NCBI GenBank assembly: GCA_003105035.1 | Contig: PQAL01000038.1 | Span: 62,001 to 126,000, forward strand | Source: Anaerolineales bacterium | GTDB lineage: Bacteria; Chloroflexota; Anaerolineae; Anaerolineales; UBA4823 | DNA: 64,000 nucleotides | Reading direction: 5' to 3' | Shown: piece after piece, positions 7,297 through 64,000 of the stretch | Layout: every line of letters begins with the position of its first letter | How positions within the stretch are numbered: the stretch's first letter is position 1 | Made by a program: the position numbers and the translations under genes | The notes under the pieces: model-generated | Seen by the model: the letters and a program-made list of their open reading frames with translations, nothing else | Databases searched by the model: none | Told to the model about the DNA's origin: nothing

Positions 7297-8896
7297 CATA
7301 TTGGTTCTTAATCTGTGGCTTCAATATCACCATCATTGCTCTGGCTTTTACGTTTGTTTTCAGCTCCCTTATAGGGCGCCGGCGGGGTGCGATCGTAGCT
7401 GTTATCGGAGTCATCCTTTATACGCTGTTGGTGGGCGCCAACCCTGCTGTCCTCCGAGCAGCCTTCCTGGGGGTGCTCACTCTGATCGGTCATCAGCTTG
7501 GTCGCCAGCAAATGGTGTGAACAGCCTGGCTTTTGCAGCTGCGATACTAGCGATCGCTACCCCAACCATCATCTGGGACGTCAGCTTCCAGTTATCCTTC
7601 GCCGCTACCCTGGGCATCATGCTGTACGCCCAGCCCCTCACCCAGTGGTTCACCCAATTAGCTGAGCGATTCACCGGGCAAGCTACGGCTAGGCGCCTGG
7701 CCGGACTGGTGGGAGGCTATTTGCTGGTAACCCTGGCAGCCCAGATCACCACCCTACCATTGATGGCCTATTATTTCAAACGAGTATCCCTGACTTCTCT
7801 GCTCGCCAACCTCCTTATCCTGCCTGCTCAACCTGCCCTGATGATATTGGCAGGTGTGTCCATACTTGCCGGTTTGGTGTTTCACCCATTTGGTCAGCTG
7901 CTGGCATGGGCTGCCTGGCCTCTGGCGACCTACTCCATCCGCCTTGTCGAATCGTTTTCTGGGGTTCCCCATGGGTCCATTGCCATCGCCTCGGTAGCTC
8001 TTCCCCTCATCCTGGTGTTTTACATTTTTCTGTTCGTTATCACATTTTTTCACAACCGCCTTGGACCTTTCACCAAACGGTCATTGCCCGCCTTACCCCT
8101 GGCGGTCCTCATTGTCACCACGCTCCTGGTCTGGAAAGCAGCTTTTTCTGCTCCCGATGGTCGCGTGCACGTGACCATCTTCGACGTTGGCACGGGTGAA
8201 GGGGTGCTGGTCCGATCACCCACAGGGCGTGAAATTCTGATCAACGGGGGTGCGAGCACCATCGAATTATCAGCGGATCTCGGCAGGCGTTTACCAGCCT
8301 TCAACCGTTCGCTTGACTGGCTTGTGGTCGCCGATTCAGATGATGAAGACCTGCGAGGGATTTCTGGCAACCTGGAACGCTTCCATCCTGCGCAGGTCCT
8401 TTGGTCTGGCAACGCGGATGCAACCCGCTCGACGAATGATCTGCAAGCTGCCATAAGCTCGTTGTCTATTCCCATCCTCTCGGCGCAATCTGGTCTGGCA
8501 CTTGACCTTGGTTCTGGGGCTTGCTTGAAGGTGATTTCTGCCAATGCCAGGGGAGCAATTTTACTCCTGGAGTGGAAGGATTTTCGGATGCTGCTGCCAA
8601 TGGGTTTGGACTTATCTGCTCTTGAATCTCTCAGCACAGATGTGTCTATGCGCAATGCCTCGGCACTGCTCCTGCCAGAATCCGGCTATGCACCCCTCAA
8701 CCCGCCTGAGCTCATCGCATCCTTGCACCCCCAGCTTGCTGTACTAAGCGTGGGAGCGGGTGATAAATCTGGATTGCCATCCCCAGAAACGATCGAGGCT
8801 CTCCGGGGCTACAACCTGCTACGCACCGACCAGAATGGTTGGATCGAGATCACCACGGATGGACAGCAGATGTGGATCGAAGTGGAAAGGAAATAA
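7297..8896 (+). pseudogene. comEC: Truncated and frameshifted comEC-like paralogue
   Basis: This copy aligns with the first comEC-like gene from its TSHII/GFNITI segment to the last residue (LLRTDQNGWIE followed by a K-rich end). The N-terminal third is absent. At the left end about two extra bases disturb the frame just before GFNITI. From 7318 the frame reads correctly as far as IGHQLGRQQ and then meets TGA; a one-base loss near 7508-7513 moves the homology into the frame that continues to 8896. The MBL-like domain has the same ligand losses as the first copy (ADSDDED for THxDxDH). A protein could only start from TTG at 7301 or internally and would have no proper N-terminus, so this is called a pseudogene. 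Confidence 0.88.
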
Positions 8897-9255
8897 TAAA
8901 TTAGGTGTAAACAATCGAGATTCTACGCCAGCTTCAAAATGTAGATAAGCGCTATCAATTTGCTTGATGATTCTGTTATGAGACATTACATCAACCTCAT
9001 AGCTCTTCAAAAGCTATAGTTAAATTAAAAACGCTTGATTATCTGCTCTCTTTATTGTATAGTATTAGCACGCCGATTTCATATCGATAAAAACAAATCA
9101 GAATAAATTAATGCAATGCTATTATGGGTGGTTTTTAATTGGCAGTGTATTTAAATCTTGCTAAGCAGAGAAATGCTCTAGTCGTTTCTATGCTTCAGTA
9201 CAAAGGGGAAATACCGGCTATCAACTCATCTGTGATCTTCTAGAGGGAGGAACGA
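8897..9255. other. AT-rich intergenic stretch before the beta-helix gene
   Basis: No convincing gene is seen in these 359 bases. A promoter-like pair lies at 9035-9063, and the ribosome-binding site GAGGGAGGAAC lies just before the ATG at 9256. A minus-strand frame overlapping the end of the comEC pseudogene was judged spurious. Confidence 0.6.
9035..9063 (+). promoter_or_regulatory. Promoter-like pair upstream of the CSLREAI gene
   Basis: TTGATT (9035-9040) and TATAGT (9058-9063) are separated by 17 nt. This would give a leader of roughly 185 nt before the ATG at 9256. The surrounding AT richness weakens the call. Confidence 0.45.
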
Positions 9256-10386
9256 ATGAATAATCAAAGCCTTAAAATGCTTGTAAGCCTGGTATGTGTA
9301 ATGATTCTTTCGCTGAGTACTTTGTCACCTGCGTCTGCTGCAACTATTACAGTTGACACTCTCGTCGATGAAAATGATGGCTCATGCAGTGATGGCGATT
9401 GCTCGCTGCGCGATGCGATCCAGCTGGCCACCCCTGTTGATACGATCAACTTCAGCGTCAAGGGAACCATCCTGTTAAATTCACAGCTCAGTATCAATAA
9501 GCGAATATCGATCAGCGGGCCAGGTTGGAATCAGCTAACCATTAGCGGGCATCAATTCACTCGAGTTATTAACGTAACAGCGTTAGGATATTTAACAATA
9601 TCATCCGTGATGATCACTGGGGGTAAAGAATCTGGTGGTGGTATATATAATGCGGGGATAGTGGAGGGCACTGGTCTGGTGATTGTTTATAACCAGAACT
9701 TAACTGGTCATGGAGGAGGGATTAACAACCAGGGCGTCATGACCTTGATTTCAACCGCTATCTCAGATAATAGTGCCTATAATGATGGGGGCGGGATATA
9801 CAACCAGGGCACCCTGGATGTGCAGCGCTCCACCTTCTATTCCAACGATGCTAGATATGGGGGTGGATTGAAGAACGAGGGCGGCACTGTGACACTGACC
9901 AATTGTACTTTTTACGAAAACTCAGCAGCTTCGCGAGGCGGTGGTCTTGATAGCGGTGCAGGCAGCACCTTGACGGTAATCAATTCCACGTTCTATAACA
10001 ATAAAGGTGGCGGAGGGCTGGGTAACCCGGATAGCATAACCACCGTGATTAACACCATCGTTGCCTTCAATACCGGGGGAGATTGCAAGTTTGGAGATGA
10101 GTTTACCGAGGTGAGCAATCACAACCTGTCAACCGATACCTCATGTGCACCCGGTTTTGAACAAGTTACAGCAGAAGCGCTTCGCCTGACCTGGGGAGGC
10201 TTCCCGGTGTCATTAGGACTCGGCAGCGTGGCGATTGATACCGGGAATAATGCTGGTTGCCCACTAATCGATCAGATGGGCACAATCAGGCCGCAGGATG
10301 GCAACCTTGACTCTGTAGCAACTTGCGATATCGGATCTGACGAGCTCATCGTGTTTGGATCCTATATACCACAAGCAAGAAAATAA
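9256..10386 (+). CDS. Secreted CSLREAI-type right-handed beta-helix protein
   Basis: A signal peptide (residues 1-28, cleavage near SAA) is followed by the CSLREAI-like block CSDGDCSLRDAIQLA. Repeated parallel beta-helix coils then run from about 60 to 290, with motifs such as GGGIYNAG, GGGINNQG, GGGIYNQG and GGGLKNEG. This is the pectin-lyase-like fold found in many large secreted proteins of Chloroflexota and relatives. It is short for the group, and no C-terminal sorting or anchor domain is seen. It may bind or act on polysaccharide, which fits the GH10 gene nearby, but no catalytic site was recognised. The start is supported by GGGAGGAAC upstream. Confidence 0.85.
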   Translation: MNNQSLKMLVSLVCVMILSLSTLSPASAATITVDTLVDENDGSCSDGDCSLRDAIQLATPVDTINFSVKGTILLNSQLSINKRISISGPGWNQLTISGHQFTRVINVTALGYLTISSVMITGGKESGGGIYNAGIVEGTGLVIVYNQNLTGHGGGINNQGVMTLISTAISDNSAYNDGGGIYNQGTLDVQRSTFYSNDARYGGGLKNEGGTVTLTNCTFYENSAASRGGGLDSGAGSTLTVINSTFYNNKGGGGLGNPDSITTVINTIVAFNTGGDCKFGDEFTEVSNHNLSTDTSCAPGFEQVTAEALRLTWGGFPVSLGLGSVAIDTGNNAGCPLIDQMGTIRPQDGNLDSVATCDIGSDELIVFGSYIPQARK

Positions 10387-10423
10387 TCAATTGCACGTTT
10401 ATCTTTAGGTAGCCAGAGGTGCT

Positions 10424-11104
10424 ATGGATACGCAAATAGTGCCAATTCATATGATGTTCGATACGGTTTATGCACTCAAAGCAGAAGGGGCTATTCTCAT
10501 TGATGGTGGAGACCCTGGTAAACTAACCAATTTTCAGCGTGGCCTGGAAGCAGCTGCAATTAAACCTGAAGAAATCAAGCTGATTGTGCTCACCCATGGC
10601 CATTGGGATCATATCGGCTCGGCTGAAGATATCCGAACTATTACCGGCGCCAAAATGCTATTACATCAGAAGGATATGCACTTTCTGGATGAAGCCCATC
10701 CCTCTCAGCCGCCTGGTTTCACGCTTTGGGGCAAGGTGCTGATCGAAATGCTCAAGCTCATCACATCCAATATGCATATTGCCAGTTTCCCAGTCGATAT
10801 CATTGCGGGAGATGATTAGATCTCCCTGATAGAATTTGGGATCCCTGGCAAGGTAATTTACACACCAGGGCATTCTTGGGGTTCTATTAGTGTCCTGCTG
10901 GATAATGGGCTGGCTTTTATCGGTGATTTAGCCATGAACATGTTCCCCATGCGCTTCAGCCCAGGGTTACCGATATTTGGCGATGACATGCTGGTAGTAA
11001 AAAAGAGCTGGCAGAAGCTGTTTCAGCTAGGCGCGAAAGTAATCTATCCTGCCCATGGAAAACCTTTTCCAGTTGAAGTGCTGAAGAACCAGATCTCAAA
11101 ATAA
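10424..11104 (+). pseudogene. MBL-fold hydrolase interrupted by an in-frame amber codon
   Basis: The frame starts at ATG 10424 (AGAGGTG upstream) and contains an intact metal motif, LTHGHWDHIGSAEDI. TAG at 10817-10819 ends the first part after 131 residues. The same frame then continues without another stop to TAA at 11102-11104 and encodes the rest of the fold: YTPGHSWGSISVLLDNG, FIGDLAMNMF and IYPAHGKPFP. The full product would be about 226 residues, normal for a small MBL hydrolase. It is either a recently inactivated gene, a readthrough case or a sequencing error. A more decayed copy of its C-terminal half lies at 13849-14091. The 37-nt gap allows cotranscription with the beta-helix gene. 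Confidence 0.85.
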
Positions 11105-11599
11105 AAGACCCTTGGCTTCGTCCATCGTTCAGGTTTTACTCAAATGGGGAATTGATTACTGTTTCGTGAGCTGGATTGCTTAGCTTTCCTGAGATACTTT
11201 ATTTTTGAGTTAAGCTTATTGCGTGTCAGGTGGCATAGCCTTGGAGGCATATCCATCAATCTTTGAGTACAAAAAATAGGCCCAAACACCAAATGCATTT
11301 CCAAGAACTAGACTGTATCCAGTAATAATTGAGCTTGTTTATCCATCTTAACTTCCAAACCTTTGCCCGATGGACGATACCCTTGCATTAGGTTCGGTCG
11401 TTAATTGATAATGAAGTGATGACTCGATGAATATCAAATAGAAAACACGGATCGTCATTTCCATCGCGAACACCCCCTGCTGACGAATTTATCACTGACA
11501 AGACATTCTGGCGGTATCCGTAGTAAAAAAGTCACTTCAGACAGAAGGTTTACCAGCTAAAGTAAATAAAATTCGAGCAGTTTTGAGCATTTAATAATC
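11105..11599. other. Intergenic stretch with a possible gene remnant
   Basis: No intact gene is seen in these 495 bases. On the minus strand, from about 11342 down to 11219, a 41-codon frame between two stops reads like the C-terminus of a membrane protein (SIITGYSLVLGNAFGVWAYF, then SKIDGYASKAMPP). It has no start codon context and may be a decayed gene end or chance. No promoter or strong hairpin was recognised. Confidence 0.4.
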
Positions 11600-13663
11600 T
11601 TACCGAACAATCAAGAAGGAAGAATCGCTCAGTACGTCGCGTAAGGCAAAGTAAGCAGGCTTTGGGTTGAAGTCCCTGTCGAATAACAATGGATCAGCAT
11701 TCGGCTCTTTTACACAGCCTTGCCTTTCGCAGGTTATCCATGAAGTTGCGTCCGAAATTCCCCAGGTAGAAAAACTATCACATACTTGCGACTCGATACA
11801 TGCCTCCATCATACTACGATAGATTTGGGCCTGATAATTCCATTTCTCCAATTGTGTGCCCGGTTGGTCCGTCAGATCGACATCCATCTCCGTTACATAA
11901 ATACGAACACCCAAATTGGCAAATTTCTGCATCGTGGCAATCACATCATCTTTTTCAGGAGCGATCTTTGAGTACCACGGTAAGAATAGATGCATTTGCA
12001 TGCCTACTACATCAATGGGTGTGCCATTTGCTTTGAGCTGCTGGAGCGTAGAATACATCTTGTCAATCACTCTGCTCGAATCAGGATCGCGCGGGCTTTC
12101 GTTGTTATCTTGATTAAAGATTAATATTGCCTCCGGATCAGTCTCTCTTGCCCAACGAAAAGCCATATCGATGTAGTCCGGGCCAATTTTATCATTCCAA
12201 AAATCTGCCCCTGTAGAGAATGATCGACCGGGTGCTTCGTTTGCAATACTCCATTCGTGAACACGTCCTTTATACCTTCCTACCAACGTTTTCACGTGTT
12301 GCTCTAGGATTTTTATATATTGATTACGACCATAGTCACCGTGGATAAGCCATTCCGGGATAACATCCGATTGAACTGCTCCCCAAACCAGGTGCATGGC
12401 TCTCACACGCCAACCCATCTGGTTTGCATAGTCCACTTCTCTATCAAGTTCACTAAAGTCATACTTTCCTGGACCAAGCCAAAATCCTTTCAAGGAAAAG
12501 GTATAAATCGCTGCCACACCATATTCCCTCTTCATTACCCGACAGTGCCTATTGTCTGCGTTTTCCCACATTGAGAAAGCTGTTCCGATGGTCAGGTTAT
12601 GGGATTTCGCCAGCTCTGCCAGCCCAGGATCACTCACTGCTGAGCTCACCCATTTCCCATTGGGGATTACCCCCACGCTCAGGCCCGTCACGAATGATGT
12701 CGAATTCGGTGCAGTGCTGGATCCAATGTATACAACGCCTTGAGGAAACAAACCATCGGGTAAATTTAATTGTGGCTGTTGGGTCAGATCGATATGTTGA
12801 ATTACATTACCATCCTGATTATAGATATTAAAGCTCTTGCCTTCAACCTGGTCAAAAATAATATAGAATGGCTGCGAGCTGCTTAGTTGCAAATCCCATA
12901 CAATGTTATAACTGCCCGCTGTTCCATCGCGAACACCAATAAGATAATGATCCCCATTATTTAGAATGTCTAACCTGCGGATTCCTTTCCACCAGGGTTC
13001 TTGTGTTTCAGGTACGCCTAATATTTTTACGATATTGTATGTCGAACCCGTCACAGATAATTTATCTAGCTTTATCCTCAATGGAGCATCCAGCTTTATT
13101 GCTTTTGTTTCAGTATCATAATAACTGTCTCGCTGATTAACAAAAGTCAAAGTGTCTGAGGCCGGGTCATAAGCCCCGCCTGTACAATAAGGGAAAAATA
13201 TTGGTTCCCAGGGAACATTGCTGGTAGTTAATTCAGGAAGATTGCTTGGTAAGAACCCGATGGTATTTTTATTAATATAACCAGTGTAGCGAATGCCACC
13301 CAGGTATGCTTCAGCTTTAACAAAATCTCCATAGATACCGATGGGAGACAGATTGTCACCTTTATTAAGGCTTGCCACGCTATCAAAGTTAATATTGCCC
13401 GGTCCATTGTACATAAGCGTATCTCGTAACAGCACAACTTGCGCGGGTTCGGACGTTGAAATTGCATACACAGTCGGAGTAGGTGCCGTTGTCGGTAGTA
13501 TTCCCGCCGGCGCAGAAGTTTCTGGGATTAGTTTCACTACCTCATTCGCCAGACGTGCAATTTTATACGGAACATCAGTAGAAGATGTATATGCTGCTGC
13601 TGAAACACACGAAGCAAGGATGGATGTCGAAAGTAAAATCAATAAAAATGTCTTTGCTTTCAC
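11600..13663 (-). CDS. GH10 endo-xylanase-like lipoprotein
   Basis: The start is GTG at 13663, with TTTGGGAGGA upstream. Residues 1-20 form a lipoprotein signal (ILASC lipobox, Cys19). Next comes a low-complexity linker, an SH3b-like segment (about 75-145, LNKGDNLSPIGIYGDFVKAE) and a region that could be a jelly-roll or LamG-like binding module. A GH10 domain (about 350-680) follows. The GH10 acid/base is E476 in WSIANEA and the nucleophile is E592 in IYVTEMDVDL, each matching the usual WDVVNEA and ITELD contexts. It should cleave beta-1,4-xylan or a related chain at the cell surface. It lies between two copies of an MBL gene, both damaged. Confidence 0.88.
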   Translation of the reverse strand: MKAKTFLLILLSTSILASCVSAAAYTSSTDVPYKIARLANEVVKLIPETSAPAGILPTTAPTPTVYAISTSEPAQVVLLRDTLMYNGPGNINFDSVASLNKGDNLSPIGIYGDFVKAEAYLGGIRYTGYINKNTIGFLPSNLPELTTSNVPWEPIFFPYCTGGAYDPASDTLTFVNQRDSYYDTETKAIKLDAPLRIKLDKLSVTGSTYNIVKILGVPETQEPWWKGIRRLDILNNGDHYLIGVRDGTAGSYNIVWDLQLSSSQPFYIIFDQVEGKSFNIYNQDGNVIQHIDLTQQPQLNLPDGLFPQGVVYIGSSTAPNSTSFVTGLSVGVIPNGKWVSSAVSDPGLAELAKSHNLTIGTAFSMWENADNRHCRVMKREYGVAAIYTFSLKGFWLGPGKYDFSELDREVDYANQMGWRVRAMHLVWGAVQSDVIPEWLIHGDYGRNQYIKILEQHVKTLVGRYKGRVHEWSIANEAPGRSFSTGADFWNDKIGPDYIDMAFRWARETDPEAILIFNQDNNESPRDPDSSRVIDKMYSTLQQLKANGTPIDVVGMQMHLFLPWYSKIAPEKDDVIATMQKFANLGVRIYVTEMDVDLTDQPGTQLEKWNYQAQIYRSMMEACIESQVCDSFSTWGISDATSWITCERQGCVKEPNADPLLFDRDFNPKPAYFALRDVLSDSSFLIVR

Positions 13664-55241: not shown

Positions 55242-56042
55242 ATGAAAATTGATTATCAAGAAACCACTGGCGACCTGCTCACCCGCATTGATATCCATAA
55301 AAAATATGGGGGTCGAGATATTGATGAATGGATGCTCCACCTGCTAAACCCCCAAAAGGGCTCCAAGATCCTCGACATCGGTTGTGGCGCCGGAAAACAA
55401 TGCTTCTTGTTCTACAAGGCATTACAAGGCGAGGCCGATATTACCGGTGGGGATGTCAACCAGCAACTCCTTGAACAGGCTCGCCAGGAAAACGCCAAAA
55501 TTGGTAATCGCATTAAATTCATTGACCTGAATTTCAACCAACGCTTCCCGTTGGAAGATAATCAGTTCGACCTGGTCACTTCCTGCTTCGCCATTTATTA
55601 CTCAGAAGATATCCCTTTCACCATCTCTGAGATGCAGCGCGTGATTAAACCAGGTGGGAGGTTGTTTACGACCGGCCCCATGCCGGAAAACAAGCAGTTG
55701 TTTTACGAGATCATCACTGAAGCGACCCATAAGCCCATCCCACCTATGCCGGGCAGCTCGCGCTACTCCAGCTTGATCTATAAAGCCGTTCAACGCCTGT
55801 TTTCAAATGTTGAGATCCAGATCTTCGAGAATCCCCTCACCTTTGAGGCTGTTGATCCTTTTCTGGAATACACCCGTGCTTCCCTGTCCGAAGATCGCCG
55901 GCTGTGGAAGAACCTGTTCGAAGATGCCGGCGGATTTGAGAAGGTAATGCAAGCTATTAAGTCTGCCGCTGAAAAGCGCCTCGCCCTGGATGGAAAATTG
56001 GTCATGACCAAGGTGGTGGGTGGTTTTATCGCCACCAAATAG
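55242..56042 (+). CDS. SAM-dependent methyltransferase
   Basis: The 266-residue class I methyltransferase has KILDIGCGAGKQCFLFYKAL, GGDVNQQLLEQAR, FDLVTSCFAIYY and MQRVIKPGGRLFTTGP. GAGGAAAA precedes the ATG. It probably methylates a sugar or a carrier in this locus. The acceptor cannot be told. It lies between a polytopic membrane gene and the ABC exporter. Confidence 0.88.
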   Translation: MKIDYQETTGDLLTRIDIHKKYGGRDIDEWMLHLLNPQKGSKILDIGCGAGKQCFLFYKALQGEADITGGDVNQQLLEQARQENAKIGNRIKFIDLNFNQRFPLEDNQFDLVTSCFAIYYSEDIPFTISEMQRVIKPGGRLFTTGPMPENKQLFYEIITEATHKPIPPMPGSSRYSSLIYKAVQRLFSNVEIQIFENPLTFEAVDPFLEYTRASLSEDRRLWKNLFEDAGGFEKVMQAIKSAAEKRLALDGKLVMTKVVGGFIATK

Positions 56043-56129: not shown

Positions 56130-56969
56130 ATGAAAACCCAAACTGGTCTATCCGTGGTATACGACAGCACCCGCCGGGGCTCAGTGGTCATCGAAGAGCT
56201 GCGCGAGATCCTCAATTACCGCTATCTCGTCTTACAGCTGGTTCGCCGCGATATCCTGACCCGCTATAAGAGATCTTTTTTAGGCGTCGCCTGGACCATG
56301 CTCAACCCACTGGGCATGATGCTGGTCTGGACCATCGCCTTTTCCCATTTCTTCCGGGCGGGTGACCTGCCTTCCTACCCGACATATGTGCTCAACGGCT
56401 TGCTGGCCTGGAACTTTTTCAGCCAGACCACTACCGCCTCCATGGTGAACCTGGTTTGGGGTGGTGGCTTGCTCAACCGCATCTACATCCCGCGCACGGC
56501 TTTTGCGGTTGCAGCCATGGGCACCGGCTTGGTGAACATTACCCTTTCCATGGTACCCCTGATTGGGGTGATGCTGGTAACGGGTGTGAAGATCCACCTT
56601 TCGATCCTGTTCACTCCGATCTCCGTGCTGATCCTGGCTGGTTTCGCCCTGGGAATTGGATTACTGATCTCCACCCTGGCAGTATATTTTCCTGATATTG
56701 CCGAGATGTACCAGATCCTGCTCATGGCCTGGATGTTCCTCACCCCAGTTATGTATCCAGTGACAATTCTGCCTGAGGCTTATCGCTTCTATCTCACCAC
56801 GCTGAACCCCATGTATCACATGGTCCTGTTGTTCCGCATCCCCATCTATTTCGGGCGCCTACCCACTGCTCCCGAGTTACTGATACCCCTCGGGTTGTCC
56901 TTATTCTTCCTGACGCTTGGCTGGTTGGTGTTCACCAAGAAATCGGATGAATTTTCTTACCGGATCTAA
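56130..56969 (+). CDS. wzm: Polysaccharide ABC transporter permease (Wzm)
   Basis: The 279-residue ABC-2 permease has six membrane segments and a cytoplasmic N-terminus (ELREILNYRYLVLQLVRRDI, then RYKRSFLGVAWTMLNPLGMM), both typical of Wzm/TagG. It pairs with the ATP-binding protein starting 4 nt downstream to export an undecaprenyl-linked polysaccharide. A TATAAT at 56098-56103 may be a promoter, with no clear -35. Confidence 0.94.
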   Translation: MKTQTGLSVVYDSTRRGSVVIEELREILNYRYLVLQLVRRDILTRYKRSFLGVAWTMLNPLGMMLVWTIAFSHFFRAGDLPSYPTYVLNGLLAWNFFSQTTTASMVNLVWGGGLLNRIYIPRTAFAVAAMGTGLVNITLSMVPLIGVMLVTGVKIHLSILFTPISVLILAGFALGIGLLISTLAVYFPDIAEMYQILLMAWMFLTPVMYPVTILPEAYRFYLTTLNPMYHMVLLFRIPIYFGRLPTAPELLIPLGLSLFFLTLGWLVFTKKSDEFSYRI

Positions 56970-56973
56970 TTGC

Positions 56974-58224
56974 ATGCCCGACCAGTCACCCTCCCCAATC
57001 CTTGAAGAACCCATCATTGAGCTAATAAATGTCTCGGTGAGATACCGCGTACCCCAGGAACAGATCGGTACTTTTAAAGAATATGCCATCCGCTTATTGG
57101 AAGGCAAGGTTAAGCATCGCAGCTTCAATGCCCTCAACCAGGTCAGCCTGAATGTAAATCGCGGCGAAGTATTCGGTTTGATCGGCCATAACGGGGCGGG
57201 CAAGAGCACCCTGCTCAAACTGGTGGCGAAGGTCATCCGCCCAACCGGCGGGAGAGTCATTGTTAGGGGCAAGGTGGCCCCTCTACTGGAAGTCGGTGCC
57301 GGGTTCCACCCCGAGCTGACCGGCCGTGAGAATATCTTCTTAAATGGTGCCATGCTGGGTTTCAGCCAGGAGGAGATGAAGGAGAAATTCCCCCGCATTG
57401 TCGAATTCTCTGAACTAGGCGATTTTATCGATGCACCCCTGCGCACCTATTCCTCCGGCATGTCAGCCCGCCTGGGGTTTGCCGTGGCTACTGATTCCCA
57501 ACCCGATATCCTCATTGTGGACGAGATCCTGTCGGTGGGTGATGAAGCTTTTCAGCATAAGAGCTACGAGCGTATTCAAGCAATCAAAGCCCAGGGTGCC
57601 ACAATCCTGCTTGTCTCCCATTCAATGAGCGTGATTGAGGGGATGTGCCAGCGGGCTGCCTGGCTGCACCGCGGCCAGGTGATCTCGCTCGATGACGCCA
57701 AGCCGGTCGTAGACCGTTACCTGGGCTTGGTCTCTGAAGAGGAAAGCCGCCAGTTGATGGCTGCCAGCCACCTGGAGCAGCAAGCCGAAGGCCGGGCAGA
57801 CAAACCCATCGAGATCCGCCAGGTGCGAATCCTGAATCAACAAGGCCATGACCAGCAGGTGTTCCACACCGGCGAATCCATGCAGGTGCAGGTCGAATAC
57901 GTCGCCCATCAGGCTATCTCCTCACTCGAAGTCGGGATCGCTATCCACCGCCAGGACGGCTTACACATAACCGGTCCGAACACCGCTTTTGATGGGCTTG
58001 ACATCCATGCTCAACCAGGGGTTGGCGGTGTGCTCTATACGATCCCATCAATCCCTCTGATGGAGGGCATGTATAAGCTATCCGCTGCTCTGGTCAACCG
58101 GGCCGGTAATATCATGCTGGACTATCATGACCAGTTTTACACCTTCCGTATCAACAACCATGGTCACGGTATGCGTGAGCGTTATGGGGTCGTGACCATG
58201 AACGGCGAGTGGCATTTGCTTTGA
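56974..58224 (+). CDS. wzt: Polysaccharide ABC transporter ATPase with carbohydrate-binding C-terminus (Wzt)
   Basis: ATG 56974 lies 4 nt after the wzm stop; a longer frame from 56917 would overlap wzm. The 416-residue protein has Walker A (IGHNGAGKSTLLKLVAKVIR), the family signature YSSGMSARLGFAVA, and Walker B (ILIVDEILSVGDEAFQHKS). Residues about 270-415 form the Wzt C-terminal beta-sandwich domain that in relatives recognises the finished glycan end (IEIRQVRILNQQGHDQQVFH). This suggests chain-end dependent export. Confidence 0.93.
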   Translation: MPDQSPSPILEEPIIELINVSVRYRVPQEQIGTFKEYAIRLLEGKVKHRSFNALNQVSLNVNRGEVFGLIGHNGAGKSTLLKLVAKVIRPTGGRVIVRGKVAPLLEVGAGFHPELTGRENIFLNGAMLGFSQEEMKEKFPRIVEFSELGDFIDAPLRTYSSGMSARLGFAVATDSQPDILIVDEILSVGDEAFQHKSYERIQAIKAQGATILLVSHSMSVIEGMCQRAAWLHRGQVISLDDAKPVVDRYLGLVSEEESRQLMAASHLEQQAEGRADKPIEIRQVRILNQQGHDQQVFHTGESMQVQVEYVAHQAISSLEVGIAIHRQDGLHITGPNTAFDGLDIHAQPGVGGVLYTIPSIPLMEGMYKLSAALVNRAGNIMLDYHDQFYTFRINNHGHGMRERYGVVTMNGEWHLL

Positions 58225-58277: not shown

Positions 58278-61229
58278 ATGACAGCCTTATACGATAACCT
58301 CAACCTGGTCTATCATCGACAACGCTGGGGCAGCGATCGGCTGGATGATTCCCAAGAAATATTTCAGCAACTCGCTGAGCGGATCATCCTGGATCTGCAT
58401 CCCGGGTCTGTCTTGGATGTAGGCTGCGGTTCAGGAGCGTTGGTCAGGGCGCTGCGCCAGCGTGGTGTCGATGCCTGGGGTACCGATGACCCTGGCACCT
58501 CCATCCAGGCTTTCATTCCAGAATTCCAAGCATTCTGTCAGCTAGCTTCAGTACTGGAGCCATTGCCACAATCCCACTATGACCTGATCGTGTGCATTGA
58601 TGTCCTTGAGCACGTCTCCAACGAGCATACCGCTCAGGTTGTTGAAAACCTGTGCTCACATGCCGATCAAATCTTGTTTTCTTGCATTCCCCTGGAAGTT
58701 GGAGCAGGACCACATGCCAATGTCCAGCCACCTGAAGCTTGGGCAGAGATCTTCTACCGCTTTGGGTTTCAGCATGACCTTGATTATGATAGCTCTTTCA
58801 TTGCTCCCTGGGCAATGCGTTTCGTCAGGACCCAACTTGCCTTGAAAGACCGTATCCAGCTCTACGAGCGCAAGCTCTGGCAGCTATCCCAGGAGGTGAG
58901 CCTGCGCCGCGAGCTGGCCGTGGAGTACAAGCTTGAGCTCGCCAAAAAAGAGATGGACCTCCAATCCTGGAAGCCCCAGCATCTTCAGGCGGAGCTGGAT
59001 GCCATCCGCAACAGTACCAGCTGGCGCATCATTACACGCTTCCAACGCTTGCGCGAGTGGCTCATTCCACCGGGCAGCCGGCGGGAAACTTTCATGCGCA
59101 GGATTTTTTATGGTTTTTCTGTGCTACACCGGGAGGGAGTGAAAGGCTTTATTGCCTTATCCGTTGCCAGGTCGAAGTCGAAGATTGAAATCCAATCCAG
59201 CCGGCTTCGTAATCGTTATCGGCTGAGGCACGCCAAAGTATCAGGTACCGGCCAGTCTTGCTCCATCGCTGCTGTGGAAGTGCGCCCTCCACTCACCGCC
59301 CACACATGCAGCGTAGATATTATCATCTGCGTCCACAATGCCCTGAAGGATGTTCAACACTGCCTGGCATCGCTCTTCGAAAACACCACTCAACCCTACC
59401 ACTTGATCCTGGTGGATGATGGTTCTGATTCTCCAACTGCCCAATACTTGCATGAATTTTCAGAAGCCCACCCAGCCCTGTTATTACGCTCAGACACTGC
59501 CACCGGTTACCCGTCTGCAGCCAATCGCGGCATGCAAGCCTCAACTGCCGAATTCGTCGTCTTGCTCAACAGCGATACCATCCTGACACCTGCCTGGTTG
59601 GACCGGTTGGCAACCTGTATCCAGACCGATCCAGCCATTGGGATGGTAGGGCCTCTGTCGAATACTGCTTCCTGGCAATCCGTGCCCCGGATTGAAGATG
59701 ATGGCGATTGGGCATCCAATCCCTTACCCGCCGGGCTATCGCCTGCAGGCATGTCGGACCTGGTCGCCTCAAAATCAGCAAGGCTCTACCCCGACATGCC
59801 GCTGTTAAACGGTTTCTGCTTGATGATCAGGCGAAAATTATTGGATCAGGTCGGTTACTTCGACGACGTGGGTTTCAGCCAGGGGTATGGAGAAGAAGAT
59901 GACCTGGTACTCCGGGCGCGGAAGCAAGGATGGAAGATGGCCCTGGCAGACGATGTATATATCTACCATGCCCAATCAAAATCCTACTCGACCGAGAAGC
60001 GCATAGCTCTTGCAGAACGCGCTCAAAAGGTGTTGCGCGAGAAGCACGGTGAGAAGATCATTGCCCAGGGGGTGAAGTTTTGCCGTCAGGCACCCGTCTT
60101 GGAAGGCATCCGCGCCAGAGCCCAGGTAGCTTTCGAACGTGATCAATGCATCCGTAGATGCCGGCAGTTCGCCGGAAAGAAGCTCCTGTTCATCCTGCCT
60201 GTCAACTGTTCAGGCGGAGGCGCAAATGTAATCCGCAGTGAAAGCATCGCCATGCAGCAGATGGGTGTGGAAGTGTCATTCTACAATCAGCCCGCCAATC
60301 GGGCAGGCTTCGAAATGGCCTATCCTGATCTGGCTCAGTCGGTTATCTATGGCGAAGCAGAATACCTGCCAGCCGTCGCCCGGAATTTCGATGTGGTGAT
60401 CGCCACATATAACCCCACCGTTAGCTGGCTGAAGCAGCTTGACACTCTGGATTCGCACCCAATCCTTGGTTATTACATCCAGGGTTTTGAGCCGCTGATG
60501 TACGTGAAAGGCAGCCAAGCTTATAACATTGCCCTTGAATCGTATTCGTTGCTTGAGAACATACGTTTGATTTCGAAAACCGACTGGACCCGCCAGCAGG
60601 TCCAGCGCGCCAGCGGTCGTGAGTGTCGGGTGATTGGACCCAGTGTGGATATCGACCTGAACCGCCCTCGCCCGAGAACTTCACCGCTCTGGCCTGTTGG
60701 TCCCCTAAAGTTGACAGCGATGATCCGCCCCGAATCACCATACCGTGAGCCTCGCAAGACCCTGGAGTTGCTCCAGAGAGCTGTGGAAAAATATAAGGGC
60801 GAGGTGGAGGCCAACCTGTTCGGCACGCCTCCGGATAATCCGGCCTTCCTCGAGCTTTCTTTAGGGTTCCCGTGGAAGATGTACGGTGTGCTCAACCCTT
60901 CCCAGGTAGCGCATTTACTCAGCCAGACAGATATTTTCATTGACTACTCGTCACACCAGGCAATGGGTCTGACTGCCATGGAAGCCATGGCGTGTGGATG
61001 TGGGGTGATCGTCCCCCACAACGGTGGTGCGTCCAGTTACGCGGTCCACGAAAAGAATAGTCTGATTGTGGATTGTTCATCCTTCGAAAACGTCTGGTCA
61101 GCTTTGCAACGGCTCATCCAGGATGAAGGCTTACGCAATCGGCTGCAACATAATGCCATCCATGATATCTGCGCCTTTTACCCTGAACGAGCAGCGTTGA
61201 ATATCCTACAAACACTATTTACTGGGTAA
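58278..61229 (+). CDS. Methyltransferase-GT2-GT4 fusion protein
   Basis: ATG 58278 gives 983 residues; a GTG at 58209 that overlaps wzt would add 23. Three parts are seen. Residues about 25-180 form a class I methyltransferase (SVLDVGCGSGALVRALRQRG, VCIDVLEHV). After a coiled linker, residues about 346-575 are a GT2 domain (VDIIICVHNALKDV, LLNSDTILTPAW, FSQGYGEEDDLVLRA). Residues about 634-982 are a GT-B domain like the next two genes (LLFILPVNCSGGGANVI, GYYIQGFEPLMYVKG, GLTAMEAMACGCGVIVPHNG). It may methylate the growing or finished chain and add sugars in one polypeptide. Confidence 0.9.
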   Translation: MTALYDNLNLVYHRQRWGSDRLDDSQEIFQQLAERIILDLHPGSVLDVGCGSGALVRALRQRGVDAWGTDDPGTSIQAFIPEFQAFCQLASVLEPLPQSHYDLIVCIDVLEHVSNEHTAQVVENLCSHADQILFSCIPLEVGAGPHANVQPPEAWAEIFYRFGFQHDLDYDSSFIAPWAMRFVRTQLALKDRIQLYERKLWQLSQEVSLRRELAVEYKLELAKKEMDLQSWKPQHLQAELDAIRNSTSWRIITRFQRLREWLIPPGSRRETFMRRIFYGFSVLHREGVKGFIALSVARSKSKIEIQSSRLRNRYRLRHAKVSGTGQSCSIAAVEVRPPLTAHTCSVDIIICVHNALKDVQHCLASLFENTTQPYHLILVDDGSDSPTAQYLHEFSEAHPALLLRSDTATGYPSAANRGMQASTAEFVVLLNSDTILTPAWLDRLATCIQTDPAIGMVGPLSNTASWQSVPRIEDDGDWASNPLPAGLSPAGMSDLVASKSARLYPDMPLLNGFCLMIRRKLLDQVGYFDDVGFSQGYGEEDDLVLRARKQGWKMALADDVYIYHAQSKSYSTEKRIALAERAQKVLREKHGEKIIAQGVKFCRQAPVLEGIRARAQVAFERDQCIRRCRQFAGKKLLFILPVNCSGGGANVIRSESIAMQQMGVEVSFYNQPANRAGFEMAYPDLAQSVIYGEAEYLPAVARNFDVVIATYNPTVSWLKQLDTLDSHPILGYYIQGFEPLMYVKGSQAYNIALESYSLLENIRLISKTDWTRQQVQRASGRECRVIGPSVDIDLNRPRPRTSPLWPVGPLKLTAMIRPESPYREPRKTLELLQRAVEKYKGEVEANLFGTPPDNPAFLELSLGFPWKMYGVLNPSQVAHLLSQTDIFIDYSSHQAMGLTAMEAMACGCGVIVPHNGGASSYAVHEKNSLIVDCSSFENVWSALQRLIQDEGLRNRLQHNAIHDICAFYPERAALNILQTLFTG

Positions 61230-61256
61230 ACTGACAGACAGTTCAGACCGCCTCTC

Positions 61257-62675
61257 ATGCCAGCCTCAGATTCGCCATCCAAAACAAATATCTCTACCAA
61301 TACCCGGGCGAGCAACCCATCCAACCCTGTCACCCATGTGATAAAAATTATTCGGCAGGAGGGATTGCTCCGTTTCTTTGTGCTCGCCTTCAATAAAGTC
61401 ATCTGGCAGCTCAGGTTTTACCTGACCTTGATTCGTTTCAAGCTGACCACTCCCAAGGGTGCTGGTCTGATTAAGATTGAGGATGTCAGTCAGAGTGAGC
61501 GGGCTGCCGACCTTCGACAAGCTGACCTGACACAGGATGAGCGGGTCAGGGATGGCAATCGCTGGTCTGAGCACTTTCTTATAGAGCGCACCGGCTTGAT
61601 CAGCGCTGGTAAGGCTCGATTTGTCCATCGCCGGGTCTTGTTTATCCTGCCCATCCAGGGCGTCGGTGGCGGGTCTAACTCAGTCTTCCTGGCGGTTAAA
61701 GCCATGCAGAAAATGGGTGTGGATGCCCAGATCATGAACCTCCAGGCATACCGCAAGCCATTCGAAAAAGCCTATCCGAACATCGATGTGCCTCTCTTCT
61801 TCGGTGAGATCAGTGACATTCCTGAATTGGCAACCGGTTATGACGCCGTGGTTGCTACTTCCAACGTAACCGTCGGTTGGATCGCGCCTGTCCAAAAATT
61901 ACACCCCGAAATCGTCATCGGTTATTACATCCAGGATTATGAAGCTTATTTTTATCCACCCGGATCCGAAGGCTATCAGACAGCCGCCGCTTCGTACACG
62001 CTCATTCCCGGCCAGGTACGCTGCGTCACCACCCGGTGGATCTATGACCAGATCAGGCAGCACCATAACATTGACTGCCACCTGGTGGGTGGTCATATCG
62101 ACACCGACCTTTTCCGTCCCCGCCCGCGCCTTCCCAGCCAGACGATACGCATCGCTGCCATGATCCGCCCGGTTTCCGAACGCCGTAATCCCCGCCTGAC
62201 CATGGAAATCCTGCGCCAGGCCAGCCAGTTGTATGGGGCCAGGCTGGAATTCATGTTGTTCGGCTGTGAGCCTTATGACCCTGACTTCCTGCCCCTACCC
62301 AGAGATTTTCCCTGGCGCCTGGCTGGCGAGTTACGTCCTGCCCAGATTGCCAACCTGCTCAACCAGTGTGATATCTTCGTGGATTTCTCCGTATTCCAGG
62401 GGTTGGGCCTGACCGCCATGGAATCGCTGTGCTGTGGGCTGGCCGCTATCGTCCCCGGGAAAGGTGGTGCAAGCACCTTCGCCAGGCATGAAGAGAACTG
62501 CCTGGTCGTCGATACCAGCGACCAGCAGGCGTGCCTCAAAGCGTTGCAGCACCTGATCGATGACGATAGCTTACGCCACAAGCTCCAACAGAATGCCATC
62601 CCCAGCGGCCTGCAGTTCTACCCTGAGTTGCCGGCTTTTAATCTCCTTCAGGCGCTCTTCCCAGGGGATAAGTGA
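61257..62675 (+). CDS. GT4-type glycosyltransferase, second copy of the module
   Basis: The 472-residue protein aligns over its last 350 residues with the GT-B end of the preceding fusion protein: VLFILPIQGVGGGSNSVFLA, IGYYIQDYEAYFYPPGSEGY, IAAMIRPVSERRNPRLTMEI, and LGLTAMESLCCGLAAIVPGK. The module resembles rhamnan-type WsaF-like transferases as recalled. Residues 1-110 are a less conserved N-terminal extension that includes an amphipathic stretch (about 20-60), perhaps for membrane contact. The start is the first ATG, 27 nt after the fusion gene. Confidence 0.87.
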   Translation: MPASDSPSKTNISTNTRASNPSNPVTHVIKIIRQEGLLRFFVLAFNKVIWQLRFYLTLIRFKLTTPKGAGLIKIEDVSQSERAADLRQADLTQDERVRDGNRWSEHFLIERTGLISAGKARFVHRRVLFILPIQGVGGGSNSVFLAVKAMQKMGVDAQIMNLQAYRKPFEKAYPNIDVPLFFGEISDIPELATGYDAVVATSNVTVGWIAPVQKLHPEIVIGYYIQDYEAYFYPPGSEGYQTAAASYTLIPGQVRCVTTRWIYDQIRQHHNIDCHLVGGHIDTDLFRPRPRLPSQTIRIAAMIRPVSERRNPRLTMEILRQASQLYGARLEFMLFGCEPYDPDFLPLPRDFPWRLAGELRPAQIANLLNQCDIFVDFSVFQGLGLTAMESLCCGLAAIVPGKGGASTFARHEENCLVVDTSDQQACLKALQHLIDDDSLRHKLQQNAIPSGLQFYPELPAFNLLQALFPGDK

Positions 62676-62747
62676 TGAGCATCCCGGCACATGTTTCCGC
62701 TGTTATTGATTGGTCAACATATCCAGCGATGAAGGGGTGGGGTTCCC

Positions 62748-64000
62748 GTGCCTGATCCCGGTCAGCTCGTCGATATAACATCCCAGGAAGTTAACAAGCC
62801 AGCTCCCATGCTCAGCTATCTCCAGTATGGCTGGTCCCTTATCCGCCGTGAAGGACTGGGTTTTGCTGTTAAGCGCTTTTGTCAGCTGGTCTCCTGGAAA
62901 GTGAAGGTCTTCCTGCGCTACATCCATATCGGACGTAGCATACCTCCAAAGGATCGCATCCTGGAAATCGGTGATCTCACACCTACAGACATGCACGCCG
63001 CTCCCGTCGGTTCACCTGCTGGACCAGGTGATATCGATATAGCAGATCTTGCCCAAACGCCTGCCTTCCGCGATCGTTTGATCCAGCTCGCCCGCACCAT
63101 CCATGAACAGCACCTTCCTGAGCGTGAAGCGCTGATTCAGGAGGGGCGCCAGCTGTTTTCAGGGCAAAAAGTCCTTTTCGTCTCCCCCATCCGGGTCTTG
63201 GGCGGCGGAGCTAATCTGATCTTTCTGGCTGCCCAGGCTATGCGCCGTATGGGCGTGGATGCCCAGATTCTCAACCTGAATGTCCATCGAAATTGGTTCG
63301 AGGGTCATTACCAGCAGCCGGATGTCCCGGTGATCTTCTCCGATATCGATACGATCCCACGCATAAGCGGGGGCTTCGAGGCTGTCATCGCCACATCCAA
63401 CCCCACCGTCGCCTGGCTTGCTCCGCTGGTTGGCCGGCTACCAGCCCCAACAATCGGCTATTACATCCAGGATTATGAGCCATATTTCTACGAACCTGGC
63501 AGCCATGAATATCAAAAGGCTGCTGATTCATACAGCCTCATCCCGAATGCCTTACGCATGGTGACCACACCCTGGATTTCCGAGCAAATCCAGCGCCATC
63601 ATCACATCGATAGTGTGATTGTCGGCGCGCATATGGATACTGACCTGTTCCAGCCTCAGCTGAACCTCGAACCTGCCTGGCCCGCTCGCCCCTTGCGTAT
63701 CACTGCCATGATCCGCCCCACCACTCCCCGGCGTAATCCCCAGCGAACCATGGCTGTCTTGCAGCGCTTGAGCCAGAGCCACGCACCACAGCTTGAATTC
63801 CGCCTGTTTGGCTGCGATCTTTCCGACCCAGGGTTTTCATCCCTCGAGCAAGATTTCCCCTGGAAGCTGGCTGGGCAGCTACGCTCATCCCAGGTAGCTT
63901 GCTTGTTCAATGGAGCAGACATTTTTGTGGACTTCTCAGATTTCCAGGCATTTGGATTGACCGCCCTGGAAGCCATGGCTATGGGACTGGCTGTCATCGT
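62748..64000 (+). CDS. GT4-type glycosyltransferase, third copy, 3' partial
   Basis: The frame runs off the right edge after 417 codons and has a stop at 62730 upstream. GTG 62748 follows AGGGGTGGGG and is the best start. It again has the N-terminal extension (SYLQYGWSLIRREGLGFAVK) and the GT-B module: VLFVSPIRVLGGGANLIFLA, IGYYIQDYEPYFYEPGSHEY, ITAMIRPTTPRRNPQRTMAV and FGLTALEAMAMGLAVI at the edge. It is more like the second copy than the fusion protein. The tandem order suggests gene duplication with different sugar linkages. Confidence 0.87.
   Translation, partial: MPDPGQLVDITSQEVNKPAPMLSYLQYGWSLIRREGLGFAVKRFCQLVSWKVKVFLRYIHIGRSIPPKDRILEIGDLTPTDMHAAPVGSPAGPGDIDIADLAQTPAFRDRLIQLARTIHEQHLPEREALIQEGRQLFSGQKVLFVSPIRVLGGGANLIFLAAQAMRRMGVDAQILNLNVHRNWFEGHYQQPDVPVIFSDIDTIPRISGGFEAVIATSNPTVAWLAPLVGRLPAPTIGYYIQDYEPYFYEPGSHEYQKAADSYSLIPNALRMVTTPWISEQIQRHHHIDSVIVGAHMDTDLFQPQLNLEPAWPARPLRITAMIRPTTPRRNPQRTMAVLQRLSQSHAPQLEFRLFGCDLSDPGFSSLEQDFPWKLAGQLRSSQVACLFNGADIFVDFSDFQAFGLTALEAMAMGLAVI

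Follow-up and report, generated by a model that had tools for sequence, protein, structure and literature searches.

Can a single protein both assemble a surface glycan and cap it for export? The question is raised by a gene at positions 58278–61229 of a 64,000-nucleotide stretch of an Anaerolineales genome (Chloroflexota; assembly GCA_003105035.1, contig PQAL01000038.1, positions 62,001 to 126,000 of the forward strand), the whole of which is referred to here as the window. A preliminary description had placed a methyltransferase and two glycosyltransferase (GT) modules in one 983-residue protein directly after the genes of an ATP-binding cassette (ABC) exporter, Wzm/Wzt, whose ATPase carries a glycan-recognition domain, and Pfam searches together with an AlphaFold2 model confirmed this arrangement (Wzt_C domain, E 1.6e-23). 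We favour, with moderate confidence, the interpretation that the fusion is the terminator-polymerase of an ABC-transporter-dependent surface glycan, in which the GT modules would extend the chain, methylation of its end would stop growth and the Wzt_C domain would admit the capped chain to the exporter. The modules and their order, the intact motif residues, the synteny with wzm-wzt and the recurrence of the layout across phyla were observed directly.

Architecture of the fusion protein and its exporter

The reading frame translates from 58278 to 61229 (+) into 983 residues with no internal stop; the modules and adjoining genes given below all lie on the same strand. An in-frame GTG at 58209 offers an alternative start that would yield 1006 aa, and the ATG at 58278 is preferred because the N-termini of homologues align from it. 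Pfam matches above the gathering score were obtained for Methyltransf_23 (residues 35–128, E 1.8e-12), Glycos_transf_2 (residues 348–524, E 3.7e-20) and Glycos_transf_1 (residues 867–961, E 3.4e-14), the last corresponding to the C-terminal half of a GT-B fold. The AlphaFold2 model, built from a 43-row alignment (mean predicted local distance difference test (pLDDT) 91, predicted template modelling score (pTM) 0.73), comprises three folded units with helices between them: a methyltransferase fold up to residue ~185, a GT-A unit up to ~600 and a GT-B unit reaching the C-terminus, with the domain limits read off the secondary structure of the model. Its first-ranking PDB neighbours are retaining GT4-type GT-B enzymes (MshA, BshA and HepE); GT-A enzymes, among them GalNAc-transferases and chondroitin polymerase, rank lower. 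A frame error or chance as the origin of the three modules was considered and rejected, given the single open frame and the presence of a full-length relative elsewhere.

The methyltransferase module (residues ~22–185; 58341–58832) contains DVGCGSG at residues 47–53, D70, DVLEH at 108–112, H146 and N148. It is followed by a helical linker (residues 189–321 in the AlphaFold2 model; 58842–59240) with the motif NSTSWRI at 245–251, by the GT2 module of GT-A type (residues ~346–600; 59313–60077), in which DDGS occupies 380–383, NSD 431–433 and GEE 538–540, and by the GT4-like GT-B module (residues ~606–983; 60093–61226). The GT2 residues D381 and N431-S432-D433 are invariant in all 33 alignment rows that cover them, and E540 is retained in 34 of 35. 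Where GT4 enzymes have EX7E, the GT-B module has QX7E (QAMGLTAME, residues 894–902; window 60957–60983), with Q894 and E902 each conserved in 33 of 33 covering rows. As judged from these motifs, the two C-terminal modules would fit a polymerising GT pair.

The linker is modelled as four helices (residues 189–229, 233–244, 247–262 and 268–321), and these predicted long helices join the terminator-type head to the polymerase modules. Its coiled-coil signal by sequence is weak: the heptad test gave a modest p of 0.026 for the 41-residue first helix, 0.12 for a 74-residue stretch and 0.93 for the helix 268–321, and the linker of the relative L034 gave 0.40. The longer linkers of L136, L050, L052, L054 and L068 show a strong heptad pattern.

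Immediately upstream lie wzm (56130–56969; ABC-2 permease, ABC2_membrane E 2e-14) and wzt (56974–58224; ABC_tran E 1.8e-21), the start of the latter being inferred at the ATG at 56974 and the Pfam search having been run on the protein read from 56977. In that protein the Wzt_C domain spans residues 275–406 (57799–58194). The gap between the end of wzt and the start of the fusion is 53 nt. The genome to which the window belongs (4.45 Mb, 97% complete) contains two Wzt_C matches, both on the contig of the window, and one of them ends 80 nt before the fusion.

Occurrence of the fusion and its linkage to wzt

When the whole protein was searched against 60 other genomes, one (G033) matched over residues 27–981 at 48% identity, three (G055, G042 and G026) matched the later part, G054 matched residues 28–457, and in a number of others the relatives corresponded to just the head or just the GT2 part. 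The idea that the fusion is unique was therefore rejected. With the GT2-GT-B core as the query, 10 of 396 genomes of the class (E up to 1e-60) and 10 of 400 of the order (E up to 1e-120) gave matches, the genome of the window being included in both counts; the fusion is uncommon within its own group. Two of the class matches, G154 (locus L136) and G187 (L129), carry heads from the methyltransferase family of the window. Beyond this group, a search of a genome collection was followed up in the best 80 of at least 567 stretches encoding a relative; 60 of these 80 match well past the GT2 part, and they come from Chloroflexota, Cyanobacteria, Proteobacteria, Acidobacteria, Firmicutes, Bacteroidota and other phyla.

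In the window and at six other loci (L035, L036, L051, L053, L068 and L069), no more than ~60 nt separate the core from a wzt that encodes a Wzt_C-like domain; the six belong to Chloroflexota, Cyanobacteria and Pseudomonas, three phyla in all. Outside the window, Wzt_C-like domains were called with a profile built from the window domain and its relatives rather than with Pfam. In L049, L050, L052, L071, L129 (as L141) and L130 (as L142) the core lies farther from such a wzt, on the same strand.

Exchangeable heads on one GT2-GT-B core

The N-terminal part of the relatives varies. Pfam assigns Methyltransf_23 heads to three cyanobacterial loci (L051, L052 and L053) and to L136, and Methyltransf_24 heads to L054, L072, L078 and L105, with a match below the cut-off in L067; Pfam also identifies the L034 and L038 heads as methyltransferases, and a profile does so for L129. 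Two Pseudomonas loci encode a GT99 head on the GT2-GT-B core, after wzm-wzt with a Wzt_C-like domain (L068:8141–11941 and L069:8249–11941). Other heads are a GT2 (L050), a GT-B (L057), a GT8 at the cut-off (L071) and a sulfotransferase (L037; below the cut-off in L074, L075 and L101), and L036 has a second GT-B stretch at a position in the protein that was not specified. Pfam found no match in the N-terminal parts of L137, L090 and L116, and the short N-termini of L049, L060, L070, L130 and L134 gave no informative one. The L049 system is split: a methyltransferase-like gene with a coil and an SWR motif (8497–9429) precedes a head-less GT2-GT-B core (9614–11953), and the pair lies 3′ of a wzt with a Wzt_C-like domain.

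A quick tree with Shimodaira–Hasegawa-like approximate likelihood-ratio (SH-aLRT) support only was built from the window core and 39 of the 82 open reading frames (ORFs) with both GT modules (75 loci), a selection that deliberately passed over duplicates and second ORFs as well as those that were more distant or extended at the C-terminus. On these 40 cores the head type requires 19 changes, compared with a minimum of 12 and a mean of 26.5 after shuffling, the label 'no head' alone accounting for 6. Heads are thus clustered yet exchanged, and in part of these changes a head is gained or lost. One clade of three cores, starred in the tree, carries Methyltransf_24, GT-B and sulfotransferase heads. 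By sequence, the GT2-GT-B core recurs across several phyla with exchangeable N-terminal heads.

The type of head was also compared with the presence of Wzt_C. At four tree loci with Methyltransf_24 or sulfotransferase-like heads (L067, L072, L074 and L101) the nearby same-strand wzt is short and has no Wzt_C, whereas Wzt_C is present at the other 13 tree loci with a nearby wzt, including the window. Three of the four form one clade, and L049, whose separate methyltransferase appears Methyltransf_24-like by eye, runs opposite to this trend. Among loci off the tree, L076, L089, L092, L094, L098, L100, L112 and L114 have a wzt with no profile match, some of them long enough for a divergent domain. 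No conclusion on head type and Wzt_C was drawn from these loci.

The GT99 and methyltransferase heads of this set come from known terminator families, unlike the GT-B, GT8-like, sulfotransferase-like and degenerate methyltransferase heads. With one polymerase core and differing heads, the set could serve to examine what is read by Wzt_C domains and whether terminator heads must be catalytic. As a separate observation, a lectin-like domain (Laminin_G_3) stands in the head position ahead of the same kind of core at L073:9308–10003.

Intact and degenerate methyltransferase heads

The window head keeps its SAM (S-adenosylmethionine)-motif residues as well as H112, H146 and N148, and retains 31 of the 35 columns that are invariant in ten stand-alone relatives. 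When the stand-alone L047 is left out of the reference, 45 of 61 invariant sites are kept; the 35-site reference includes L047, the 61-site reference omits it, and neither count covers the heads of L048, L132 and L056. Loss of methyltransferase residues in relatives, which the preliminary description had named as a point that would speak against its proposal, was found in some Chloroflexota lineages. Of the 35 columns, L038 keeps 35, L034 and L136 32 each, L129 22 and L035 15; on the 61-site count L034 keeps 49, lacking H146 and N148, L129 keeps 35 and L035 19. The count is no clean yardstick of decay, since L047 itself keeps just 35 of 61 sites when outside the reference, equal to the degenerate L129.

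The degenerate heads sit on a conserved GT2-GT-B core at L035:6258–6875 (+), at L129:3689–4320 (−) and at the N-termini of L048:8211–11297 and L132:562–3480. G49, C50, G53 and D70 are lost in L129; D47, C50 and G53 are lost in L035, in which G49 and D70 are retained. Alignment to the methyltransferase family with hhalign supports a common origin for the L035 head (86%, E 5e-6) and for the L048/L132 head (94%, E 1e-7, over 99 columns). The L035 head was modelled with low confidence (pLDDT 66) from an alignment that included true methyltransferases; nearly all of the 50 PDB matches listed for it are methyltransferases, which lends weak support to a methyltransferase origin. The L048/L132 head appears to be under constraint (0.28 nonsynonymous (pN) against 0.66 synonymous (pS) differences per site, from one pair with high synonymous divergence, dS). 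Pfam gave no match in the heads of L048, L056 and L132, and hhalign left those of L056, L171 and L172 unplaced (probabilities <3%); the latter three were kept out of the set of degenerate methyltransferases, even though L056 shares a tree label with L048 and L132. In a search for an intact relative acting in trans, none was found in G055, G449 and G434 and just the degenerate copy in G187 (genomes 74–98% complete), the window head being the single query, one that would overlook methyltransferases of other families. G686 encodes an intact stand-alone relative and, ~2 kb away, a fusion whose head stayed unassigned.

These heads invite a speculative proposal, which we consider improbable as it stands: one conserved GT2-GT-B polymerase may present its N-terminal end as a socket into which different heads fit, and the methyltransferase head of several Chloroflexota lineages may now be a pseudo-enzyme still under selection, serving as a non-catalytic sensor of the chain end or as a dock for a separate capping enzyme. 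If so, length control and export licensing would have become independent of any methylation that the polymerase protein carries out.

Comparison with characterised systems

In WsaE of Geobacillus stearothermophilus NRS 2004/3a, which acts on an S-layer glycan, an N-terminal methyltransferase methylates the glycan, which it is held to cap, and is joined to two GT domains; wsaE follows overlapping wzm-wzt genes, with wsaF (GT4) near and rml genes downstream (PMC2943079). The window fusion likewise combines a methyltransferase with two GT modules directly 3′ of wzm-wzt, and the order wzm-wzt-fusion-GT-B resembles wzm-wzt-wsaE-wsaF in layout. Unlike the WsaE locus, the window has a GT-B C-terminal module and two GT-B paralogues next to it, and its rml genes lie ~36 kb past the window end. 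WsaF is a GT4 rhamnosyltransferase of known structure in which the first Glu of EX7E is replaced, within the signature PHPSYPPLE (PMC3898925). The GT4-like module of the fusion has also replaced this Glu, but by QX7E; PHPSYPPLE is not present at the site, and Pfam WsaF_N matched only the two downstream GT-B paralogues, below the cut-off, and not the fusion.

ORF6 of the Klebsiella pneumoniae O7 locus resembles the fusion in having an N-terminal methyltransferase, a linker and two C-terminal GT modules in an ABC-transporter locus (PMC11231755). It is described as a methyltransferase-kinase with a coiled coil and two GT2 modules, whereas the window protein has no kinase, no insert resembling a carbohydrate-binding module (CBM), a GT-B as its second GT and a short linker. 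WbbB (K. pneumoniae O12 / Raoultella terrigena) combines terminator and polymerase in one protein as GT99, coiled coil, GT102 and GT103 (PMC11231755), and its N-terminal GT99 adds a terminal 3-deoxy-D-manno-oct-2-ulosonic acid (Kdo) (PMC9587256, PMC11231755). GT99 heads also occur on window-type cores in the two Pseudomonas loci; in WbbB the cap is Kdo, not methyl, and the GT modules are assigned to other CAZy families. WbdD (E. coli O8/O9a) is a methyltransferase-containing terminator with a coiled coil (PMC3482155), and the head-family profile matches WbdD chains in the PDB (E 1.8e-5 to 3.2e-5) as well as 7pd7 (CgnL; E 2.4e-7), the closest structural match reported for the methyltransferase of the O7 terminator (PMC11231755). 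Unlike the fusion, WbdD is separate from the polymerase WbdA and, in O9a, carries a kinase. A WbdD-like methyltransferase-kinase head was considered and rejected: Pfam gave no match to a kinase module after the methyltransferase at E 0.1, and in the AlphaFold2 model the linker helix begins at residue 189.

Since the N-terminal module is the chain terminator in the characterised systems of this layout (PMC2943079, PMC11231755), the proposal that capping is fused to chain making appears plausible by analogy, and the layout and the intact SAM-motif residues agree with it. Its novelty did not stand, because WsaE, WbbB and O7 ORF6 are already such fusions, and the K. pneumoniae paper describes the terminator-polymerase strategy as widespread, citing a 2019 survey of chain-termination chemistry (PMC11231755). 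In the open-licence literature, few searches of which were so aimed, we found nothing on the Chloroflexota family of the window, on head exchange or on degenerate heads, of which the 2019 survey may cover the first two, and no paper on a pseudoenzyme methyltransferase in an O-antigen context. What the window adds is an extension to Chloroflexota of the WsaE/WbbB/O7-ORF6 way to build, cap and license a glycan. Chloroflexota are generally taken as monoderm and without lipopolysaccharide; the parallel with ABC-exported O-antigens drawn in the preliminary description is therefore less apt than the one with S-layer glycans, and the fusion probably makes a wall glycan, of S-layer type or another, rather than an O-antigen.

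Proposed mechanism and alternatives

By analogy with these systems, chain extension, end-methylation, length control and recognition by Wzt_C may be coupled in the window as follows. At the cytoplasmic face, a lipid-linked chain would be lengthened by the GT2 and GT-B modules, probably together with the two adjoining GT-B paralogues; the methyltransferase, held apart by the helical linker, would O-methylate the non-reducing end and so stop growth; and Wzt_C would let the capped chain enter Wzm/Wzt. Because there is no kinase module between the methyltransferase and the linker, a simple O-methyl group is the expected cap, as in WsaE and in O8 WbdD (PMC3482155).

Several observations weigh against this mechanism. 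In the PDB the head profile scores best against unrelated methyltransferases of small molecules (Mg-protoporphyrin O-methyltransferase, E 1.7e-10; UbiG, E 2.3e-9), ahead of WbdD, and the window head departs from its stand-alone relatives at 16 of the 61 otherwise invariant sites. The degenerate head of L035 directly follows a wzt with a Wzt_C-like domain, which suggests that Wzt_C does not everywhere need this methyl group. A second methyltransferase, a stand-alone UbiE-like class I enzyme (55242–56042; Methyltransf_25, E 5e-20), is encoded 5′ of wzm and is a possible rival capping enzyme. The window linker is weak in heptad pattern by sequence, and any role of it as a molecular ruler is conjectural. 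Finally, the stretches of L037, L048, L054, L056, L057, L132 and L136, among others, show no wzt, some of them being short contigs.

The short, weakly coiled-coil linker would suit a methyltransferase that decorates sugars along the chain and diversifies the glycan while export is gated otherwise, and in K. pneumoniae O1 the terminal pyruvate just diversifies the glycan and length control is independent of it (PMC11231755). We regard this as unlikely for the window, in which the head lies at the far end of the linker, the terminator position in characterised proteins of this layout (PMC11231755), and Wzt carries Wzt_C; GT99 occupies the same N-terminal position in other loci. The altered sites of the window copy, the degenerate heads of L035, L129 and L048/L132, the separate methyltransferase 5′ of wzm and the intact stand-alone relative in G686 would all agree with a head that is becoming a non-catalytic structural domain, as in the related lineages, with any cap supplied by the enzyme at 55242–56042 or by another. 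The retention of the SAM-motif residues, H112, H146 and N148 argues against this, and we hold it to be rather more doubtful than decoration. An ordinary multidomain glycosyltransferase with an incidentally fused methyltransferase and no functional tie to Wzm/Wzt would account for the many core loci at which the stretch examined has no wzt. Such a lack of linkage, the other point that the preliminary description had named as speaking against its proposal, is contradicted in many loci, though not in all: the core directly follows a wzt with Wzt_C in the window and at the six loci given above, and one of just two Wzt_C matches in the genome adjoins the fusion. An incidental fusion is thus highly improbable, and the terminator-polymerase remains the interpretation that we favour.

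Genomic neighbourhood

Downstream of the fusion lie a stand-alone GT-B transferase (61257–62675), 42% identical to the C-terminal module of the fusion by BLASTP, and a second stand-alone GT-B paralogue (62748–64000), which extends beyond the window end and has 491 aa in the genome; in the genome search both genes match this module at 43–44%. Positions 60093–64000 thus hold three related GT-B units in series, the C-terminal module of the fusion and the next two genes. Beyond the window the contig continues as a long polysaccharide locus with a NeuB gene. On the same contig, ~36–41 kb past the window end, are rmlC, rmlB, rmlA, rmlD and wecB, and the position of rmlCBAD from ~36 kb onwards makes deoxythymidine diphosphate (dTDP)-L-rhamnose a possible donor. 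The same locus contains a second Wzm/Wzt pair with a weaker Wzt_C (L031:16245–18688, ~71.2–73.7 kb in window numbering). At the other end of the window, two similar ORFs at 3–2177 and 7301–8896 are ComEC-like, the name and the likeness being by eye, and the N-terminus of the one at 7301–8896 is unusual, resembling the result of a frameshift or truncation.

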